Shown piece by piece: positions 8,702 through 19,122 of a stretch of 64,000 nt of DNA. Where the stretch lies: the NCBI GenBank assembly GCA_016779605.1, contig JADHNH010000005.1, positions 1 to 64,000 on the forward strand, given 5' to 3'. The position numbers and the translations under genes were made by a program. The notes under the pieces are model-generated. The model had not been told where the DNA came from and ran no database searches. It saw only the letters and a program-made list of their open reading frames with translations. Every line of letters begins with the position of its first letter. The stretch's first letter is position 1. The DNA is from Nevskia sp. GTDB taxonomy: Bacteria > Pseudomonadota > Gammaproteobacteria > Nevskiales > Nevskiaceae.

Positions 8702-9562
8702 ATGAGTTGGACGACGATCAGCTATGCCGTGTCCGAGCGGATCGCCCGGATCACGCTGCAGCGGCCGGACCGTCTGAATGCGATCAACACCACCCTGGCG
8801 CGCGAGCTGGAGGCCGCGGTCGCGCGCGCCAATGCCGACGACGCCGTGCACGTGATCGTGCTGCAGGGCGCCGGCAGCGACTTCTGCGCCGGCTTCGACC
8901 TCAAGGAATACGCCGAAGGTTCCTCGCTGTGGAACCAGGACATGCCCTGGGACCCGCTGATCGACTACCGCATGATGAAGCAGTTCTCCGAGCGCTTCAC
9001 CTGCCTGTGGCGCTCCTACAAGCCGACCATCGCCCAGGTGCAGGGCCATGCCGTGGCCGGCGGCAGCGAGCTGGCCCTGTCGTGCGACATCACGGTGATG
9101 GCGCAGGACGCCCGCATCGGCTATCCGCCGGCGCGGGTCTGGGGCTGCCCGGTCACCGGCATGTGGGTGTACCGGCTCGGCGCCGAGAAGGCCAAGCGCA
9201 TGCTGCTCACCGGCGACGTGATCAGCGGCGCCGAGGCGGCCGCCATGGGCCTGGTGCTGGAGGCGGTGCCGGCCGAACAGCTCGAGGCGCGGGTGTCCGA
9301 GCTGGCGCGGCGCATGAGCGGCGTGCCGAAGAACCAGCTCATGATGCAGAAGCTGATGATCAACAGCGCCTACGAGAACATGGGCCTGGCGGCCACCCAG
9401 ACCCTGGCGACGCTGTTCGACGGCATCACCCGGCACTCGCCCGAAGGCCAGCGCTTCCGCGCCCACGCCGCCGAGCACGGCTTCCACGACGCCGTGCGGC
9501 TGCGCGATTCCGGCGCGCCGATCCCCGGCAGCAAGCCGACCCCGCCCGGCCTGGAAGCCTGA
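8702..9562 (+). CDS. Crotonase-superfamily protein, enoyl-CoA hydratase-like
   Basis: This is a 286-residue crotonase-fold protein acting on acyl-CoA thioesters. The start at 8702 has AGGAGG eight bases upstream. The oxyanion-hole segments are present (DFCAGFDLKEY at about 60-70 and HAVAGGSELALSCD at about 117-130). The first catalytic Glu is kept (GGSEL), but where true hydratases have PEVxxG the sequence reads PPARVWGCPVTG, so the second Glu is missing. It may therefore isomerise, hydrolyse or act on an unusual substrate. It begins a rightward block with a second crotonase 40 bp downstream. Confidence 0.85.
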   Translation: MSWTTISYAVSERIARITLQRPDRLNAINTTLARELEAAVARANADDAVHVIVLQGAGSDFCAGFDLKEYAEGSSLWNQDMPWDPLIDYRMMKQFSERFTCLWRSYKPTIAQVQGHAVAGGSELALSCDITVMAQDARIGYPPARVWGCPVTGMWVYRLGAEKAKRMLLTGDVISGAEAAAMGLVLEAVPAEQLEARVSELARRMSGVPKNQLMMQKLMINSAYENMGLAATQTLATLFDGITRHSPEGQRFRAHAAEHGFHDAVRLRDSGAPIPGSKPTPPGLEA

Positions 9563-9602
9563 ATCCGGTGCGCCCCATTCCACACGATTCCGGAGCCCCG
9601 CA

Positions 9603-10373
9603 GTGTCCGAGCTGATCAAGCACGAACGCCACGACCGCGTCCTCCTGCTGCGGCTGAACAACCCGGCGCGCAAGAACGCGCTGACCCAGGCCATGTACTC
9701 CGGCCTCGCCGACGGCCTCGAGGCGGCCGCCGCCGACAGCGGCATCCGCGCGCTGATCTTCGCCGGCGCGCCGGACGGCTTCTGCAGCGGCAACGAGATG
9801 CAGGATTTCCTGCGCGCGGAGGGGTTCGGCCCGCAGACGCCGATCCCGCGCTTCATGCACGCCCTGATGGACTTCCCCAAGCCGGCCATCGCCGCGGTCA
9901 ACGGCTTTGCCATCGGCATCGGCGTGACCCTGCTGCTGCACTGCGACCTGATCTACGCCGGCGAGAGCGCGCGCTTCCAGACGCCGTTCGTCAACATCGG
10001 CATCTGCGCCGAGTTCGCCTCCACCGCTCTGCTGCCGCTGGCGGTGGGCAACGCCCGCGCCGCCGAGCTGGTGCTGTTCGGCGAGCCGTTTTCCGCCGCC
10101 AAGGCGCTGGAATACGGCCTGATCAACGCGGTGCTGCCCGACGCCGAAGTGGAGCAGCACGCGCTGGCGCGCGCGCACAGGCTGGCGCAGCAGCCGCCCA
10201 ATGCGCTGCGCGTCAACAAGCGCCTGCTGCGCCGCGCCGGCCGCGCCGCGGCGGACGCGGCCATCGCCGCCGAGTTCGAAGCCCTGGCGCCGCTGCTACG
10301 CGGCGGCGAGGCGCGCGAGGCGATCACCGCGTTCACGCAGAAGCGCAAGCCGGATTTTTCGAGATTCGAATAA
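9603..10373 (+). CDS. Crotonase-superfamily protein, delta3-delta2-enoyl-CoA isomerase-like
   Basis: This 256-residue crotonase starts with GTG. The usual first catalytic Glu is absent (AIGIGVTLLLHCD). The active-site pattern instead resembles PECI/ECI isomerases, which have GIGVTLL and then an HTPF...SPEGCSS segment; here it is QTPFVNIGICAEFAS, with a Glu in the matching place. Such enzymes shift cis/trans-3 double bonds to trans-2 so that unsaturated fatty acids can enter beta-oxidation. Together with the preceding crotonase it suggests processing of unsaturated or cyclic acyl-CoA. The assignment by active-site residues is by eye. Confidence 0.8.
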   Translation: MSELIKHERHDRVLLLRLNNPARKNALTQAMYSGLADGLEAAAADSGIRALIFAGAPDGFCSGNEMQDFLRAEGFGPQTPIPRFMHALMDFPKPAIAAVNGFAIGIGVTLLLHCDLIYAGESARFQTPFVNIGICAEFASTALLPLAVGNARAAELVLFGEPFSAAKALEYGLINAVLPDAEVEQHALARAHRLAQQPPNALRVNKRLLRRAGRAAADAAIAAEFEALAPLLRGGEAREAITAFTQKRKPDFSRFE

Positions 10374-10426
10374 AGCCGTCACCCCCGACCACAGTTCCGA
10401 CAATCAGACAGCTCAACGGTGCGACC

Positions 10427-11809
10427 ATGATCAAACTCAAGTACGACCGCGGCTTCAGCCGCCGCAAGTTCCTCGCCGACGCCGCGCGCGGCGTGCTCTC
10501 CACCGGCGTGCTGATGCCGCTGTGGAAGGCTATGGCCAATACCGGCGACGTCGCCAAGGCCTACCCCGACGAACTGCTTTCGCTGGAGGTGTTCACCAAG
10601 GGCAAGGTCAAGGCCGGCGACGAAATCAACGCCGACAACGTCGAGCACGTGAAGGACCTGCTCGCGCCCATCACCTACGAGCAGATCCTCAATCACGGCC
10701 GCCGCCTCAAGGTGGCGCCCACCACCACCGACGTGATGCGCATGTCGCCCTGGGAATACATCGAGGCGACGCTGCGCAACTCGGGCAAGGCCAAGTTCGA
10801 CGAGCGCGGCAACGTGGTCGCCCCCGACGGCAGGCCCTGGATCGGCGGCAACCCGTTCCCCGACCCGAAGACCGCGGTGGAGCTGTTCGCCGCGCAGACC
10901 CTGAGCTGGGGCCGCCACGACGCCTCGTTCTACTCGTTCAAGGAATACGACGTCGACCCCGAGGGCAACGTCCTGTTCAACTACGAGGGCGGCTGGTGCG
11001 AAATGTCGCCGGTGGCGCGCGTCAGCATGGACCCCAAGCCCTACTGGCCCGGCCACGAGGACAAGCTGCGCTACCAGGGCGTGTTCTTCACCAAGCCGAA
11101 CAACCTGCGCGGCACCTCGTTCCTGAGCGTGTGGCCGTACGACCACAGCACCTTCCCGGACCTGCTGGGCTACGTGAAGGAATTCCGCCGCGTGCGCCAG
11201 TTCCCCACCGACCAGCGCTTCGAGCCGCTGGTGCCGGGCTCCACCCTGTACCTGTCCGACGCCTGGGCCGCCGGCGATCCGCTCTACACCTGGGGCAACT
11301 ACAACATCGTCGGCCGCGGCCCGTTCCTGGCCGGCGTGTCGGGCGGCTGGAATTCCGAGCACCCGAACTGGGAGCACACCACCCACGGCGGGCCCAAGGG
11401 CAACAACTTCTGGGACATGACGGTGGAGCTGATCCCCGAGGCCATCATCGTCGAGGCCGAGCCGGTCAAGTTCCCGCGCGCGCCGGTGTCGAAGAAGCGC
11501 GTGTGGTTCGACGCCCGCAACCAGGTGGTGGTGGGCATGGTCTCGTACGACCGCAAGGGCCAGGCGTTCCGCTCGTTCGACGGCTGCTACGCGCTCTACG
11601 ACGACGGCAAGGGCAAGAAGGTGATGGACGGCGCGCATCCCTACTGGAGCTGGGGCTGCGTGCACGCCTCCGACATCCAGACCGGCCGCGTCACCCGCCT
11701 GGAGCAGGTGCGCCAGATCGAGGACACCCACTTCAGCGGCGCCAACAACCCGGGATGGTACGACGCCTACCTGACGCAGGCCGCGCTGACCCACCTCGGC
11801 GCCGCCTGA
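10427..11809 (+). CDS. DUF1329 protein, Tat-exported
   Basis: This 460-residue protein of the DUF1329 family is proposed to have an outer-membrane-lipoprotein (LolB-like) fold. The N-terminus carries a twin-arginine motif, FSRRKFLAD, followed by a hydrophobic stretch, so export by Tat is likely; there is no lipobox. Family hallmarks include the Trp-rich blocks (LSWGRHDASFYSF, GPKGNNFWDMTVEL, HPYWSWGCVHASD). DUF1329 genes commonly neighbour MMPL/RND pumps, as here, and are suspected to help move hydrophobic compounds across the envelope. It is followed by a strong terminator, so it probably ends its own transcript. Confidence 0.85.
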   Translation: MIKLKYDRGFSRRKFLADAARGVLSTGVLMPLWKAMANTGDVAKAYPDELLSLEVFTKGKVKAGDEINADNVEHVKDLLAPITYEQILNHGRRLKVAPTTTDVMRMSPWEYIEATLRNSGKAKFDERGNVVAPDGRPWIGGNPFPDPKTAVELFAAQTLSWGRHDASFYSFKEYDVDPEGNVLFNYEGGWCEMSPVARVSMDPKPYWPGHEDKLRYQGVFFTKPNNLRGTSFLSVWPYDHSTFPDLLGYVKEFRRVRQFPTDQRFEPLVPGSTLYLSDAWAAGDPLYTWGNYNIVGRGPFLAGVSGGWNSEHPNWEHTTHGGPKGNNFWDMTVELIPEAIIVEAEPVKFPRAPVSKKRVWFDARNQVVVGMVSYDRKGQAFRSFDGCYALYDDGKGKKVMDGAHPYWSWGCVHASDIQTGRVTRLEQVRQIEDTHFSGANNPGWYDAYLTQAALTHLGAA

Positions 11810-11826
11810 GGCGACGCCGCTTCGAC

Positions 11827-11863
11827 ACGGCGGTGCGGCAGCCCAAGCCGCACCGCCGTTTTT
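11827..11863 (+). terminator. Rho-independent terminator after the DUF1329 gene
   Basis: ACGGCGGTGCGGC (11827-11839), loop of seven bases, and the complementary arm (11847-11859) are followed directly by a T tract ending at 11863. This is the clearest classical terminator in the window. It separates the DUF1329 gene from the MMPL exporter gene. Confidence 0.9.
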
Positions 11864-11903
11864 AGTGCCGGACTTCGACTAGACCAACAAGGGGCTCCGC
11901 TTC

Positions 11904-14345
11904 GTGTATTCGATCCGCTTCCGCATCGCCCGCTGGGTGCTGGCCCACCGCCGGCTGTCCGCCGCCGCGTTCCTGCTGGTGACCCTGTTCTTCGCCGCCG
12001 GGCTGCCGCGCGTGCACCTGCGCACTATCTTCCGCGACCTGCTGCCGCAGGACGACGAGTTCGTGAAGGTCTACAAGGACCACCCGGACTTCGGCAACCC
12101 GCTGACCGTGGCGGTGATGATCAAGCGCAAGAACGGCGACATCTACAACGCCGAGACCATCGCCAAGGTGTGGAAGTTCACCCGCGACATCGACCTGGCG
12201 CCGGGCGTGGACCACGACCAGATCCTGTCGATCACCACCGAGAAGGCGCGCTACGCCGAGGCCACCCCGGTGGGCATCGACATGCACCCGCTGATGGGCG
12301 ACCACCCGCCGCAGGCGCCCGACGAGATCCAGCAGTTCCGCGAGCACGTGGAGATGGCGCCCAACGTGCGCGTGTTCCTGATCTCGCGCGACGACACCGC
12401 GGCCATCGTCACCGCCACCTTCATCGAGCAGCGGGTGGACTACGGCCAGGTGTTCCACTACATGCACGACCTGGTGGAGGCGGCGCGCGACAAGGACCAC
12501 GACGTGGTCATGGCCGGCCAGCCGATCCTGATCGGCTGGGTCTACCAGTACGAGCTGCAGATGATCGGCATCTTCTGCGTCACCCTGGCGGCGCTGGTGA
12601 TCGCGCTGGTGCTGTACATGCGCAACGTGGTGGGCGTGGTCACGCCGATCATCACCTCGGCCACCGCCGGCATCTGGGCGTTCGGCTTCGTCGGCTGGCT
12701 CAACATCTCCATCGAGCCGCTGCTGATGGTGGTGCCGCTGCTGCTCACCGCGCGCTCGTTCTCGCATTCGGTGCAGTTCACCGAGCGCTTCTACGAGGTG
12801 TACGCCACGGTCAAGGACCGCGTGAAGGCGGCCGAGATCACCATGGGGGTGATGATGGCCCCCAGCGTGCTGGGCATCATCACCGACATCCTCGGCATCT
12901 TCATCGTCGGCTTCGCGCCGATCCCGGCGATGGTGCGGCACGCGATCTTCTGCGGCATGTGGGCGGTGTGGCTGATCCCCACCGGCGTGGTGCTGATCTC
13001 GCTGCTGCTGGCCAGCCTGCCCCCGCCGCGCAATGTCGAGCAGCTGGTCGGCCGCGGCAGGACTTCGGGCGTGCACCGCAAGTTCCACGACGCGCTGGGC
13101 AGCATCGCCAGCCTGTCCTACGGCCGGCGCGCGCGCGTCACCACGGTGGTGGTGGCGCTGGCTTCGGTGGTGTCGATCTACATCGCCCAGCAGATCAAGT
13201 TCGGCAACCCGGTGGAGGGCACCAACCTGCTCTGGTACGACTCCGATTTCAACACCGCGGTGCGCAAGCTCAACGCCAACTTCCCCGGCGTCAACACGCT
13301 GGAGATCGTGCTGGAGGCCAAGGACCAGCAGAACCCGAGCTGGGTGATGAACCAGGCCGACACCGCCATGACCATGCTCAAGCTCGAGCGGATCGTCGAA
13401 AAAGGCCCGCTGCCGCCGCGCGCCACGCTGTCGTTCGCCGACTACGAGACCGAGGGCAACCGGCTGTTCAACGGCGGCAACCCGAAATGGATGCCGCTGG
13501 ATCCGCGCGACGAGGCGGTCAACGCCGCCGCCATCGGCGTGATGATGGGCTCCAGCGCCAAGAACTTCGGCCACGTCACCAACTTCACCATGCAGAACGG
13601 CACCGTGTCGCTCTGGTACAAGGACAACAAGCAGGAAACCGTCGACGCCGCGCTCAAGGAGGCGCGAGCGGCGATCGCCGAGGTGGGCGCGGACCACCCG
13701 GCGTTCCGCATCCGCCTGGGCACCGGCACCATCGCCCTGCAGGAGGCGGTCAACCAGGTCATCGCACGCTTCCACTGGGTGGTGCTGGCGGTGCTGAACC
13801 TGCTGATCCTGCTCACCTGCAGCCTGACCTACCGCTCGCTGGTGGCCGGCCTGCTGCTGCTGGTACCGGTGAACCTGGCCAACCAGGTGCTGTACGCGGC
13901 CATGCACCTGATGGGCGTGGGCCTGGACACCAACTCGCTGATCGTCGCCGCGATCGGCGTGGGCGTCGGCATCGACTACGGCATCTACCTGCTGTCGCGC
14001 ATCTGCGAGGAGTACCACGCCGCCGAGGGCGACTGGGGCGTGGCCATCACCGCCGCGCTGCGCACCACCGGCAAGGCCATCATGTTCACCGCCAGCATCA
14101 TGACCTTGGGCATAGCGCCCTGGTATTTCCTGTCCGGCCTGAAGTTCGTCGCCGACATGGGGCTGCTGCTGATCGTGATCATGGCGATCAACATGGTGCT
14201 GGCGCTGGTGGTGCTGCCGCTGCTGGTATGGCTGGTCAAGCCGACCTTCGTCCATCGCCGGGACCTCATCATCGGCGAGGGCGTGGACCTGTCGCTGTTC
14301 ACCGACGCCCTGCACGAGACCGAACCGGCGCGGGCGCCGGCCTGA
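11904..14345 (+). CDS. MMPL/RND-family membrane exporter
   Basis: Inner-membrane proton-driven transporter of 813 residues, in the length range of MMPL/HpnN-type RND proteins. One membrane segment near the N-terminus precedes a periplasmic loop, then two bundles of five to six segments each (about 210-420 and 610-780) with a second loop between. VGVGIDYGIYLLSR at about 680-693 is a typical RND TM4-like motif with a membrane aspartate. It starts with GTG behind AAGGGG. The neighbouring DUF1329 gene, crotonases and BVMO suggest a hydrophobic lipid or steroid-like substrate, which is inference. Confidence 0.9.
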   Translation: MYSIRFRIARWVLAHRRLSAAAFLLVTLFFAAGLPRVHLRTIFRDLLPQDDEFVKVYKDHPDFGNPLTVAVMIKRKNGDIYNAETIAKVWKFTRDIDLAPGVDHDQILSITTEKARYAEATPVGIDMHPLMGDHPPQAPDEIQQFREHVEMAPNVRVFLISRDDTAAIVTATFIEQRVDYGQVFHYMHDLVEAARDKDHDVVMAGQPILIGWVYQYELQMIGIFCVTLAALVIALVLYMRNVVGVVTPIITSATAGIWAFGFVGWLNISIEPLLMVVPLLLTARSFSHSVQFTERFYEVYATVKDRVKAAEITMGVMMAPSVLGIITDILGIFIVGFAPIPAMVRHAIFCGMWAVWLIPTGVVLISLLLASLPPPRNVEQLVGRGRTSGVHRKFHDALGSIASLSYGRRARVTTVVVALASVVSIYIAQQIKFGNPVEGTNLLWYDSDFNTAVRKLNANFPGVNTLEIVLEAKDQQNPSWVMNQADTAMTMLKLERIVEKGPLPPRATLSFADYETEGNRLFNGGNPKWMPLDPRDEAVNAAAIGVMMGSSAKNFGHVTNFTMQNGTVSLWYKDNKQETVDAALKEARAAIAEVGADHPAFRIRLGTGTIALQEAVNQVIARFHWVVLAVLNLLILLTCSLTYRSLVAGLLLLVPVNLANQVLYAAMHLMGVGLDTNSLIVAAIGVGVGIDYGIYLLSRICEEYHAAEGDWGVAITAALRTTGKAIMFTASIMTLGIAPWYFLSGLKFVADMGLLLIVIMAINMVLALVVLPLLVWLVKPTFVHRRDLIIGEGVDLSLFTDALHETEPARAPA

Positions 14346-14362
14346 GCCAACGCATGAAATCG

Positions 14363-14391
14363 GCCCGGCGGCGCCACGAGCGTCGCCGGGC
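14363..14391 (+). terminator. Probable terminator after the MMPL exporter gene
   Basis: GCCCGGCG (14363-14370) pairs with CGCCGGGC (14384-14391) across a 13-base loop, followed by TTGCTTTG. The T tract is interrupted, so efficiency is uncertain. It lies between the exporter stop and the BVMO ribosome site. Confidence 0.6.
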
Positions 14392-14468
14392 TTGCTTTGC
14401 GCAGCAGCTTGATGCAAAAAATGCGGCAGCCGTCGGCTGATTCGCGCTTATCAGGAGGAGACGAATCG

Positions 14469-15956
14469 ATGGGCATCCAGCACGATCCGCTGACCGGCGC
14501 CGGCCGGACCACCCGGCGCGACCCGCGCATCGCCATCGTCGGCGCCGGCATGTCGGGCCTGCTGATGGGCATCCAGCTCAAGAAAGCCGGCATCGACAGC
14601 TTCACCATCTTCGAGAAGGGCCCGGCGGTCGGCGGCACCTGGCGCGACAACACCTACCCGGGCCTGGCCTGCGACGTGCCGGCGCGCCTGTACACCTATT
14701 CCTTCGACACCAACCCCAACTGGAACCACCGCTACGCCCGCGGCTACGAGATCCAGAAATACTTCGAATCGGTTCCGGCCAAGTTCGACCTCGCCCCGCA
14801 CATCCGCTTCAACACCGAGCTGGCCGACGCCCGCCACGCCAACGGCGAATGGCTGGTGACGACCAAGGACGGCCAGACCCTGGCGGTGGATTTCCTGGTC
14901 ACCGCCACCGGCATCCTGCACCATCCCAGCTACCCGGAGATCAAGGGCCTGGAAAGCTTCGCCGGCGCCTGCTTCCACAGCGCGCGCTGGGACCACGGCG
15001 TGCCGCTGCAGGGCAAGCGCGTCGGCGTGATCGGCACCGGCTCCACCGCCGTGCAGATCACCACCGCGCTGGTGGACAAGGTGGCGAAATTCGAGCTGTT
15101 CCAGCGCACCCCGCAGTGGGTGTGCCCGCAGATGGACACCGCCTACTCGGAGACCAACAAGCGCCTGTTCGCGCGCATCCCGCTGCTGCGCCGGCTGGTC
15201 TACGCGGTCTACAAGAAGTATTTCGAGCTGACCTTCGGCCGCGCCGTGGTCGGCGACAAGCGCCTGATGGCGGCGATCTCCTGGCTGTGCCGGCGCCACC
15301 TGGCCACGGTGAAGGACCCCGAGCTGCGCCGCAAGCTCACGCCCAGCTACTACCCGGCCTGCAAGCGGCTGATCTTTTCCGACACCTTCTACAAGGCGAT
15401 CCAGCATCCGGCCGCCGAGCTGGTCACCGAGGGCATCGACCATGTCGAGCCGCGCGGCGTGGTCGACAAGAGCGGCCGGCTGCACGAGCTCGACGTGCTG
15501 GTGCTCGCCACCGGCTTCAAGGCCCACGAGTACATGCGACCGATGCACGTCGCCAACGAAAGCGGCCTGACCCTGGACCAGGCCTGGGCCAAGGGCGCCT
15601 TCGCCCACCGCACGGTCGGCCTGCCGGGCTTCCCGAACTTCTTCATGCTGATGGGGCCGCACAGCCCGATCGGCAATTTCTCGCTGATCTCCATCGCCGA
15701 GATGCAGGTGCGTTACATCATGACCTTCATCGAGCTGTTCCGGCAGGGCAAGTGCAGCAAGGTGGAGCCGGCGGCCGAGGCGGCCCGGCTGTACAACGAC
15801 GCGATCCGCAACGCGCTCAAGGGCACCGTGTGGATGACCGGCTGCCGCAGCTGGTACTTCGACCAGAACGGCCTGCCCGCCCTGTGGCCCTGGACCTTCG
15901 GCCGCTACCGCCACGAGATGAAGGCGCCGCGGCTGGACGAGTTCGTGCTGAGCTGA
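14469..15956 (+). CDS. Flavin-dependent Baeyer-Villiger monooxygenase
   Basis: NADPH- and FAD-dependent monooxygenase of 495 residues that would insert oxygen next to a ketone to give an ester or lactone. The start at 14469 is set by AGGAGGAG just upstream. The FAD motif GAGMSG is at 25-30, the BVMO fingerprint F-x-G-x-x-x-H-x-x-x-W is complete (FAGACFHSARW, 164-174), and the NADPH Rossmann motif GTGSTA starts at about 189. The type I BVMO motif ATGF follows at about residue 352. It is 22 bp upstream of the DUF3237 gene. The substrate could be a steroid, cyclic ketone or fatty ketone; the sequence does not say. Confidence 0.9.
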   Translation: MGIQHDPLTGAGRTTRRDPRIAIVGAGMSGLLMGIQLKKAGIDSFTIFEKGPAVGGTWRDNTYPGLACDVPARLYTYSFDTNPNWNHRYARGYEIQKYFESVPAKFDLAPHIRFNTELADARHANGEWLVTTKDGQTLAVDFLVTATGILHHPSYPEIKGLESFAGACFHSARWDHGVPLQGKRVGVIGTGSTAVQITTALVDKVAKFELFQRTPQWVCPQMDTAYSETNKRLFARIPLLRRLVYAVYKKYFELTFGRAVVGDKRLMAAISWLCRRHLATVKDPELRRKLTPSYYPACKRLIFSDTFYKAIQHPAAELVTEGIDHVEPRGVVDKSGRLHELDVLVLATGFKAHEYMRPMHVANESGLTLDQAWAKGAFAHRTVGLPGFPNFFMLMGPHSPIGNFSLISIAEMQVRYIMTFIELFRQGKCSKVEPAAEAARLYNDAIRNALKGTVWMTGCRSWYFDQNGLPALWPWTFGRYRHEMKAPRLDEFVLS

Positions 15957-15978
15957 GCGGTTCGCCGGAAATCCCGCC

Positions 15979-16437
15979 ATGGACCCGAAATTCCGCCCGC
16001 TGTTCGTCGTCGACATCCAACTGCATCCCCCGCAGATGCAGGCGCGCACGCCGCTGGGCGAAAGAAAGCTGGTGCCGGTTGCCGGCGGCAGCTTCGAAGG
16101 CGCGCGCCTGCGCGGCAAGGTGCTGGGCGGCGCTTCCGCCGACTGGGCGCTGACCCGCCACGACGGCGTGCTGGTGCTCGACGTGCGCCTGACCCTGGAG
16201 ACCGACGACGGCGAGCGCGTCCTGATGCGCTACGGCGGCCTGCGCCACGGCCCCGCCGACGTGCTGGCACGCGTCGCCCGCGGCGAGCCGGTGGATCCGG
16301 CCAGCTACTACTTCCGCACCACGCCGACCTTCGAGGCGCCGCTGGGCAAGTACGACTGGCTCAACCGGCTGCTGGCCATCGGGATCGGGGAGCGGATGAA
16401 GGAAGGCCCGCGCTACACTGTTTTCGAGATTCTTTAA
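15979..16437 (+). CDS. DUF3237 family protein
   Basis: This 152-residue cytoplasmic protein belongs to the DUF3237 (beta-barrel, calycin-like) family. It shows the usual blocks: GGSFEGARLRGKVLGG (about 36-51), DWALTRHDGVLVLDVRLTLETDDG (about 54-77), RYGGLRHGP, PASYYFRTTPTFEAP and a conserved end GKYDWLNRLLAIG. Function is unknown, but members often sit in aromatic or ketone catabolic gene sets. Here it follows the BVMO closely. Its stop codon coincides with the left tip of a small inverted-repeat element, and the last 105 bp are almost identical to the end of a decayed paralogue 1.3 kb away. Confidence 0.88.
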   Translation: MDPKFRPLFVVDIQLHPPQMQARTPLGERKLVPVAGGSFEGARLRGKVLGGASADWALTRHDGVLVLDVRLTLETDDGERVLMRYGGLRHGPADVLARVARGEPVDPASYYFRTTPTFEAPLGKYDWLNRLLAIGIGERMKEGPRYTVFEIL

Positions 16438-16602
16438 CAGGCTGCCAAAAAACCCGGTATTCCTGCAGCCTGCGATTGGCGAATGGAGGTGCCAACGAAG
16501 ATCGAGCACGCGAGTAGCTGATCTTCGGGAGTGTGGAAAAGTCACGCCTTTTTGACTGCCACCTGAAAAAGGCCAAGGATGTCCTTTTTCAGCAACCCGT
16601 TA
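16435..16602. mobile_element. Small non-autonomous element with imperfect terminal inverted repeats
   Basis: The left end TAACAGGCTGCCAAAAAACC (from 16435) and the right end, read in reverse, TAACGGGTTGCTGAAAAAGG (to 16602) match in about 13 of 20 positions. The 168-bp stretch has no gene. A perfect 10-bp stem (CTGAAAAAGG at 16563 and CCTTTTTCAG at 16583) lies near the right end. It looks like the tip of an insertion sequence or a MITE. The DUF3237 stop codon is formed by its first three bases. The 150 bp from here to the hicB stop hold nothing I recognise. Confidence 0.5.
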
Positions 16603-16755
16603 TGTCCAATCAGGGCGCGATGCCGAGATCATCACCGCCCAAGATAGGGGCGCACGCGTTTGGCCGCCGCGCTCAATGGAGTGATTACGCGGCTGGAAAA
16701 GAACAAGGGCGGCGTCGGCCGGGTGCGGCGGCACGAACGGACTGTGCACCTGACC

Positions 16756-17172
16756 TTATCGCTTGGATTCCTCCGCGCCGGCGCTATGCAAGGCCTCACG
16801 AGCCGCGCGGGCAAGAAAGCCGGAACGGGTCTCGCCATGAGACTCGGCAAACCGGTCGATGCGGCGAAGCAGCCGCGCGGGTAACGTGACGTTGACTCGT
16901 TCCGCACCAGTTTCCAGTTCCGCCTCGTCGAGATCGAGCACAACCCAGACCGCACCGGCGTACTCCGGGTCGGCTTGGAGTTGTTCAAGAGTGCGGTTCT
17001 GAATTTCGATTCCTTCAGCGTCCATGCCTTCCAGGTGCAAAAGAACAGCTTCGCGCGCCGCCCCGATCGCCGCATCGAGCGTGCCGCCAGCGGAGAAGCA
17101 GCCCGGCAAATTTGGAACTGTTACGCCATAGTCCGAGCCCGGATCCTTATGAATCGCAAGTACATATTGCAT
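16756..17172 (-). CDS. hicB: HicB-type antitoxin
   Basis: Antitoxin of a HicAB module. The 138 residues have the HicB N-terminal partial RNase-H-like fold (YVLAIHKDPGSDYGVTVPNLPGCFSAGGTLDAAIGAAREAV, written here only as YGVTVPNLPGCFSAG at about 15-29 for the key motif) and a C-terminal ribbon-helix-helix region (RVNVTLPARLLRRIDRFAE, about 93-111) for operator binding. It neutralises HicA and represses the operon. The gene lies 88 bp downstream of hicA on the same strand. HicA first, HicB second is the usual order. No frame damage is visible. Confidence 0.9.
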   Translation of the reverse strand: MQYVLAIHKDPGSDYGVTVPNLPGCFSAGGTLDAAIGAAREAVLLHLEGMDAEGIEIQNRTLEQLQADPEYAGAVWVVLDLDEAELETGAERVNVTLPARLLRRIDRFAESHGETRSGFLARAAREALHSAGAEESKR

Positions 17173-17260
17173 GTGATGCTCTCAGCCCCTGATTACCCGA
17201 GGCGCGGTGCAAGTCCTTCGAGTCGCTGACATCTATTGCATGTGCACATGACGCCGCAGA

Positions 17261-17449
17261 CTACTTCCAGTTCCAACCTGCTTGCCGAAAAATACTGCGC
17301 AACGTGCCAGTGGGAATATCCGAGCGAGGATGCGGGACAGTCACCAGGCCGGGGCGTGCAGGATGCTTGAACTGCTGGTGGCTGCCGCGAACGCGGCAAA
17401 CCTCCCAGCCCTCTGCTTGCAGCCGCCGTATAACATCCGCACTCTTCAT
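17261..17449 (-). CDS. hicA: HicA-type mRNA interferase toxin
   Basis: Small dsRBD-like toxin that cleaves mRNA when free of HicB. It has 62 residues, the common size. The family core is complete: VIRRLQAEGWEVCRVRGSH (about 6-24, with the catalytic histidine His24), then QFKHP, VTVPHP and IPTGTLRSIFRQAG. The start codon lies two bases from a perfect inverted repeat that overlaps a likely promoter, and no Shine-Dalgarno is visible, so translation may be leaderless or weak. The gene interrupts the 5' part of a DUF3237 pseudogene of opposite direction. Confidence 0.9.
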   Translation of the reverse strand: MKSADVIRRLQAEGWEVCRVRGSHQQFKHPARPGLVTVPHPRSDIPTGTLRSIFRQAGWNWK

Positions 17450-17450
17450 T

Positions 17451-17468
17451 GTGTGTATTTTTACACAC
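17451..17468. promoter_or_regulatory. Palindromic operator in the hicAB promoter
   Basis: GTGTGTA (17451-17457), TTTT, TACACAC (17462-17468) is a perfect 7-bp inverted repeat with a 4-base spacer, ending two bases before the hicA start. Read leftward, TTGATA (17487-17482) lies 16-17 bp before the A-rich centre of the palindrome (TAAAAA), so the repeat probably covers the -10 box. Binding of the HicB ribbon-helix-helix domain here is the expected autoregulation. Confidence 0.65.
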
Positions 17469-17483
17469 TATATTGCTGGTATC

Positions 17484-17826
17484 AAAGAGAGGCCGCGCCT
17501 GCGCGTAACAATCTTGCCTGGAATCACCGCCCATCAGGAACTTACTTTCAGCAATGGCGTAGCGGTGCCGAAGCTGCGCCTGATGCTGGATACTTAAGAT
17601 GAATCGCGCATCCTGATGAACTGCCACGGCATGCGCCTTCACCGCGCGGATGTCTTGGCATCTCACATGTAGCGAGGCTGTCGATCTCGCCGACTAATAC
17701 CGCCGCACCGCGCCAACCATCAAAGCGCCGCTGGGCAAGTACGACTGGCTCAACCGGCTGCTGGCCGTCGGGATCGGCGAGCGGATGAAGGAAGGTCCGC
17801 GCTATACCGTCTTCGAAATCCTGTAA
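17484..17826 (+). pseudogene. Decayed second DUF3237 gene, 5' end lost
   Basis: Conceptual translation aligns without gaps to the intact DUF3237 protein. RPRLRVTILPG corresponds to GARLRGKVLGG. GVAVPKLRLMLDT corresponds to GVLVLDVRLTLET. Then comes a stop (TAA, 17595-17597), then DESRILMNCHGMRLHRADVLA opposite DGERVLMRYGGLRHGPADVLA. After a frameshift near 17665, CSEAVDLAD, a second stop (17695-17697) and YRRTAPTIKAPLGKYDW follow. The last 105 bp are nearly identical to the intact gene, far closer than the rest. The 5' quarter is missing where the hicA promoter begins. Confidence 0.85.
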
Positions 17827-17854
17827 TCCCGCGGGAACGCCTGCATCCGCAGAC

Positions 17855-17885
17855 AAAAAAGCCGGGGCTTGCGCCCCGGCTTTTT
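17855..17885. terminator. Bidirectional rho-independent terminator
   Basis: An A tract (17855-17860), GCCGGGGC, loop TTGC, GCCCCGGC and a T tract (17881-17885) form a symmetric hairpin that can end transcription from both sides. It separates the DUF3237 remnant (rightward) from the leftward fadBA operon. Confidence 0.9.
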
Positions 17886-17904
17886 CGCCCGCCCGTATGG
17901 GAGG

Positions 17905-19122
<1,218 letters not shown>

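Follow-up and report, generated by a model that had tools for sequence, protein, structure and literature searches.

Duplication of the 3' end of a protein-coding gene around an inserted element has been described for e14 in the icd gene of E. coli. According to the accessible part of that account, e14 leaves a 165-bp 3' duplicate with 12 nucleotide changes and two conservative replacements (PMC11148124). A DNA stretch of 64,000 nucleotides from Nevskia sp. (contig JADHNH010000005.1, positions 1 to 64,000; hereafter the window) contains a locus which, as far as the available text of the two e14 reports goes (PMC6379469, PMC11148124), resembles e14/icd in that copies of the 3' end of a protein gene flank an insert, the full-length gene would owe its end to a copy with few and mostly conservative changes, and the far copy is a pseudogene bearing the other tail. 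The e14/icd-type direct repeats of the gene 3' end are present on both sides of the insert. Unlike in e14, no integrase was found, a site-specific recombinase being absent among the ORFs scanned, and the insert is only 1.3 kb long with hicAB as its sole recognised genes. Moreover, a decayed upstream body is attached to the far copy, a feature not described for icdC in the accessible portions of the same reports (PMC6379469, PMC11148124).

Three further systems are relevant here. Short gene conversion between bacterial paralogues likewise produces a patch of near-identity between otherwise diverged copies; in contrast to such a patch, however, the similar stretch at this locus reaches the stop codon and is silently diverged in its distal part. 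The HicAB type II toxin-antitoxin systems are matched by adjacent HicA and HicB genes, as identified by Pfam, with the toxin gene first behind a promoter-like site. We regard this hicAB as a predicted toxin-antitoxin module in which nothing unusual was seen. The intact gene (copy 1) encodes a full-length member of the DUF3237 family (PF11578). In the available part of the report on PinX, another DUF3237 member, its authors predict a decarboxylase acting in pinoresinol catabolism that resembles the decarboxylases PhcF and PhcG (PMC12607616). By analogy with PinX, decarboxylation in aromatic catabolism is suggested as the function of the family. The locus is not named in the literature that we found on DUF3237, protein-gene integration, e14, paralogue conversion or hicAB transfer, which is no proof of absence.

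The gene order is flavin monooxygenase, copy 1, dispersed repeat, spacer, hicB and hicA (both on the minus strand), remnant of a second DUF3237 copy, hairpin, and convergent thiolase. Copy 1 closes a DUF1329 / MMPL / flavin monooxygenase / DUF3237 gene run, in which the monooxygenase was identified by Pfam, and the names DUF1329 and MMPL are those which we take to apply from the look of the sequence. The features, with their positions in the window, are as follows.

15979–16437, plus strand: intact DUF3237 gene (copy 1), 152 aa (PF11578, E value 1.2e-40)
16336–16377, plus strand: left 42-nt exact core, codons 120–133 of copy 1 (exact runs, change point)
16378–16437, plus strand: left 3' end, sharing 51/60 nt with its right counterpart, changes mostly silent
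16438–16599, no strand: dispersed MITE-like repeat adjoining the copy 1 stop codon (ends set by eye)
16604–16755, no strand: spacer, ~65% GC, without recognised gene
16756–17172, minus strand: hicB, predicted antitoxin, with HicB-like domain (PF15919, E value 1.4e-41) and ribbon-helix-helix (PF07878, E value 6.1e-08)
17261–17449, minus strand: hicA, predicted toxin (PF07927, E value 1.4e-21)
17457–17485, minus strand: promoter-like hicAB site, TTGATA-17-AAAAAT (weak; one site versus 0.6 expected)
17484–17724, plus strand: second DUF3237 copy, decayed body, codons ~39–119 (stops 17595–17597 and 17695–17697; frameshift 17664–17667)
17725–17766, plus strand: right 42-nt exact core (exact runs, change point)
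17767–17826, plus strand: right 3' end, undecayed, stop codon 17824–17826
17849–17892, no strand: terminator-like hairpin beside the convergent thiolase gene (inverted repeat; absent from the terminator scan list)

A similar hairpin follows the thiolase in 6/6 relatives viewed (by eye), and the weak promoter-like site abuts the start of the remnant. A search of 16300–18000 against Rfam gave four matches up to an E value of 1, none reaching the gathering score, and Pfam yielded for the spacer only a sub-threshold TOBE match (E value 0.071), which was disregarded.

Orthologues of the thiolase are found in 16 of the 18 genus genomes, this one included, and its surroundings were compared in 10 of the other 15. 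An enoyl-CoA hydratase orthologue lies downstream of the thiolase in 8 of these 10 stretches (55–68% identity, at most 4 kb away); the stretches without this neighbour are L151 and L154, the latter only 4 kb long. The gap between thiolase and hydratase measures 296 nt in L152 and 239 nt in L150, and in L149 it contains a monooxygenase (39% identity) and an alpha/beta-hydrolase-like ORF (named by eye). Because DUF3237, DUF1329 and MMPL had no match in any of the 10 genus stretches around the thiolase, the block 10427–17826 is, judged from gene content, an island-like difference between species. At 1e-3, 9 of the 18 genus genomes (this genome included) carry more distantly related DUF3237 genes. 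Elsewhere, a Xanthobacteraceae MAG (L082:2420–3815) carries three consecutive DUF3237 genes with 3' parts somewhat more alike than their bodies, and a Rugamonas MAG (L050:5001–6157) has a tandem pair, its parts 89–97% identical, that looks like a recent duplication.

The repeat behind copy 1, taken as 16434–16602, has eight other copies in the genome with 69–90% identity. Taken as 16438–16599, its family comprises nine copies here and six in genome G004, with none in the 16 other genus genomes. Its ends are imperfect inverted repeats and it includes a strong internal palindrome (by eye), and, as is typical of MITEs, it occurs as short dispersed copies without a gene. The flanks are TTAA (16434–16437) and TTAT (16600–16603), while two other copies (L096 and L097) have TTAG on both sides; such flanks may be linked to the YTAR targets of IS5-type elements. 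The left TTAA, which includes the stop codon of copy 1, stems from the CTT TAA ending of the left tail; with CTG TAA, the right tail offers no TTAA. Provided that TTAA was the target, the left variant of the tail predates the insertion of the repeat.

The earlier note had described a 5'-truncated DUF3237 remnant with two stops and one frameshift, and this is borne out by the alignment to copy 1. Positions 17478–17663 align to codons 37–98 (45% amino acid identity, one TAA) and positions 17668–17823 to codons 101–152 (79%, one TAA), both parts being separated by the net frameshift at 17664–17667, and the first 36 codons are absent. The direct repeat formed by copy 1 and the remnant is 155 nt long with 85% identity and a spacing of 1389, and the body shows 61% identity over 243 aligned nucleotides. 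A change-point scan places the main break in divergence at 16336 (reached by 0/1000 permutations) and a weaker second break at 16378 (118/5000), so the near-identical patch is clearly bounded at its 5' side and less clearly at its 3' side. The last 105 bp had been thought near-identical with mostly silent differences. Their silence was confirmed (nine codons differ in codons 120–152, of which eight are silent and one is I/V), but the identity is uneven, with 42/42 nucleotides shared between 16336–16377 and 17725–17766, followed by 51/60 between 16378–16437 and 17767–17826. Over codons 119–142, 68/72 nucleotides are common to both copies, and silent codon changes number 1/20 there versus 7/10 in codons 143–152 (Fisher 4e-4; border chosen post hoc). 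Differing residues make up 43/80 in the body versus 2/34 in codons 119–152 (Fisher 6e-7). A 29-nt piece of the core, with at most three mismatches allowed, was found in 1 of 398 sampled phylum genomes, namely this one, at these two places.

At the body sites conserved in at least 80% of relatives (n=26), copy 1 keeps 26 residues and the remnant 13. In 31 relatives as distant from copy 1, a mean of 85% of the conserved residues is kept, the minimum being 13, and the lowest keepers are five divergent genes of this genome and genus (L002, L005, L008, L010 and L012) with 12–16/26. The body differences are spread 25/22/29 over codon positions, which is non-discriminating, as 36 relatives of like distance share the position-3 portion (mean 38%). 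Neutral simulation from copy 1 gave 1.7 stops versus 2 observed in the remnant, and 9.2 conserved residues kept versus 13 observed (P for at least 13, 0.084). Changed body residues match relatives at 0.069, as compared with 0.034 in the simulation (P 0.003) and 0.10–0.31 in 14 sampled relatives. Because of these simulation results on stops, conserved residues and changed residues, the remnant body looks like mostly neutral decay with a little older divergence. As a point against decay, one net indel in ~240 nt seems few for such drift; a laxer gap cost breaks the remnant alignment into more pieces. In the tail, neutral change would give 30% silent differences, and with 8/9 differing codons silent (P 4e-4), the tails have mostly changed inside working genes. 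This pattern indicates that the tail derives from a gene that was still working after decay of the body had begun.

A 3' end so strongly conserved in the family that it only seems recombined could account for the terminal residues, 10/10 of which are the same in both copies. The relatives argue against it. Among the 76 that cover enough of the gene, identity to copy 1 over the 3' 34 residues averages 10 points below that of the body and exceeds it by at most 6 points, whereas in the remnant the excess is 48 points; over codons 119–142 no more than 67% (48/72) is shared with copy 1 by any of 83 relatives, as opposed to 68/72 here, and 76% is the highest value among 2686 pairs of relatives whose bodies are less than 65% alike. 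The earlier note had pointed to tandem DUF3237 genes with equally similar ends as the case that would speak against recombination. More than one DUF3237 gene is present in 5 of the 131 loci examined and tandem genes in 4 of these, the fifth (L088) having convergent genes and being left out of the pair comparison, and no such jump was seen in the 4 loci and 6 pairs (one each from L020, L050 and L077, three from L082). The L082 genes show a mild 3' rise (codons -34 to -10, nucleotide identity 0.64–0.71 versus 0.46–0.58 in the body). As a full explanation, conservation was rejected on the comparison of 3' end and body in relatives, and it is close to refuted. Because the body is decayed and the 3' jump is unmatched in relatives, we conclude that a decayed body became linked to a 3' end on which selection had continued to act. 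It is highly improbable that the body instead represents a more divergent DUF3237 subfamily of the same genus and is not mostly decayed. The five low keepers named above are open frames from this genome and genus and so lend the idea some support, but the closest sequences to the first part of the remnant are copy 1 (45.9%) and L020 (40%), the best 14 matches listed for that part include not one of the five, and the remnant has two stops and a frameshift. Merging of two loci or strains via a short repeat during assembly is unlikely. The draft assembly does consist of 188 contigs and the exact repeat is short; nevertheless, ordinary reads are presumably longer than 42 nt and there are many differences between the copies, and synteny with relatives holds for the thiolase and for genes upstream of the block.

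A quite possible, if on balance doubtful, alternative is that tandem duplication and insertion of hicAB, with removal of the 5' end of the second copy, were followed by decay and then by one-way conversion of 42 to ~105 nt from copy 1 into the remnant. Nothing beyond a tandem pair and ordinary homologous recombination is required for such a course, and DUF3237 tandems do occur, as in the 4 tandem loci among the 5 of 131 with more than one gene. The body differences resemble the decay of a copy-1-like gene, as would be expected of a local duplicate (0.069 versus the simulated 0.034), and the nearly silent-only tail can be tolerated if most changes fell in copy 1, the P value for tail silence under one-way conversion being 0.12, 0.35 or 0.02 with half, one third or 70% of the changes in the remnant, respectively. 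On the other hand, silent changes are concentrated in the last ten codons, so that a single 105-nt tract fits less well, while a tract of 42 nt would not account for the absence of decay in the tail (P 4e-4 at the rate of the body). Nor was a trace of the monooxygenase 3' end detected before the second copy (blastn of 16603–17483 against 9001–16437, best E value 0.23), although a deletion is possible.

We weakly and tentatively prefer, over one-way conversion, a crossover in the 3' third of the DUF3237 gene, for which e14 in icd provides a parallel. In this proposal, a single working gene composed of the copy 1 body, the core and the tail now at 17767–17826 would originally have stood next to the thiolase terminator. 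A hicAB segment would have brought along a decaying piece of a DUF3237 gene, 5'-truncated and with a functional tail at its end, and this fragment, whether incoming or neighbouring, would have recombined with the working gene inside the common core (16336–16377 / 17725–17766). Copy 1 would thereby have acquired the incoming tail, with its silent differences, as its end, and the old tail would have been left on the decayed body of the fragment; later, the MITE-like repeat would have landed on the TTAA at the new stop codon of copy 1. The anatomy, the decay, the break at 16336, the nearly silent-only tail differences and the repeat are observed; that a single crossover rather than a conversion took place, which of the tails came in, and that hicAB entered in the same event are points which we infer.

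In favour of the crossover, a decayed body (13/26 conserved residues) stands beside an undecayed tail (8/9 changes silent), and silent divergence of the tail continues past the core, which makes one fresh copy of the entire 3' end a poorer fit. Next to the right tail is a hairpin of the type that follows the thiolase in the relatives viewed. The left tail has T-ending codons at 4 of its last 6 positions, and windows of 6 codons with at least 4 AT-ending ones number 99/15593 in 38 neighbouring ORFs picked by a GC rule. Against it, 2 of 38 windows at ORF ends reach 4 AT-ending codons, so that the left tail is only mildly unusual for a gene end, and the right tail has 3/10 AT-ending codons and is not clearly native. 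A fragment already decayed on arrival would also require, for its intact tail, either an earlier integrated selection or a young age, and one-way conversion followed by drift reaches the P of 0.12 given above when half of the changes fall in the remnant. Campbell-type integration of a foreign circle, as first read from the codon endings, is kept as a preference only, the codon test being weak (2/38 ORF ends alike, and the right tail AT-rich too). The recombination between the copies after the onset of decay that the earlier note had suspected is supported by the contrast between decay and tail, with a weak leaning on our part to a crossover or insertion over conversion. The suggestion that the repeats could serve for the excision of hicAB is possible on paper. 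With the 42-nt core lying in frame in either copy, joining of the flanks yields an intact gene (153 codons, no internal stop, 1 aa change; 152 aa); however, no excised or empty form was seen.

Searches for a donor, an empty site, a circle or a recombinase covered several collections, and their negative outcomes count against the crossover. No recombinase was found between the repeats when hicA, hicB and three further ORFs of the 1.3-kb insert were scanned with Pfam. An orthologue of copy 1 was detected in 0 of 57 other family genomes at an E value of 1e-25 or below, and DNA searches of plasmids and phages gave no match at 1e-5. The 51 records of plasmid DUF3237 proteins were all less than 60% identical, a protein-pattern scan of viral contigs returned no relative, and the same approach with genome contigs returned 77 loci, the best with 60%. 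The class sample of 369 genomes gave 6 matches at 1e-30, including the genome itself, the best other having 51%. For hicB, matches were found in 7 of the 369 class genomes, again including its own, at no more than 56% identity and too far for a comparison of flanking DNA; its best identities to relatives in separate searches were 47%, 49% and 56%. A tblastn search with the translated insert against the upstream DNA, with composition correction and masking switched off, gave many matches scattered over all six frames (best E value 3.7e-6) that were judged to be low-complexity noise.

The order of events at this locus becomes readable by contrast, since a freely drifted body is fused to a tail kept under selection. 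It is a highly improbable extension that the 1.39 kb represent a recombinase-less hicAB unit that uses homology to a host gene's 3' end for its movement, and equally so that the gene fragment and functional tail of such a unit would keep the host gene intact on entry or loss while the toxin-antitoxin pair would punish loss. The history of the locus is neat but fairly ordinary. If conversion is true, it would be an ordinary event between tandem copies. If insertion is true, the locus would present the e14/icd pattern in a small, recombinase-less form around a toxin-antitoxin pair, and such modules may settle behind useful genes without breaking them.
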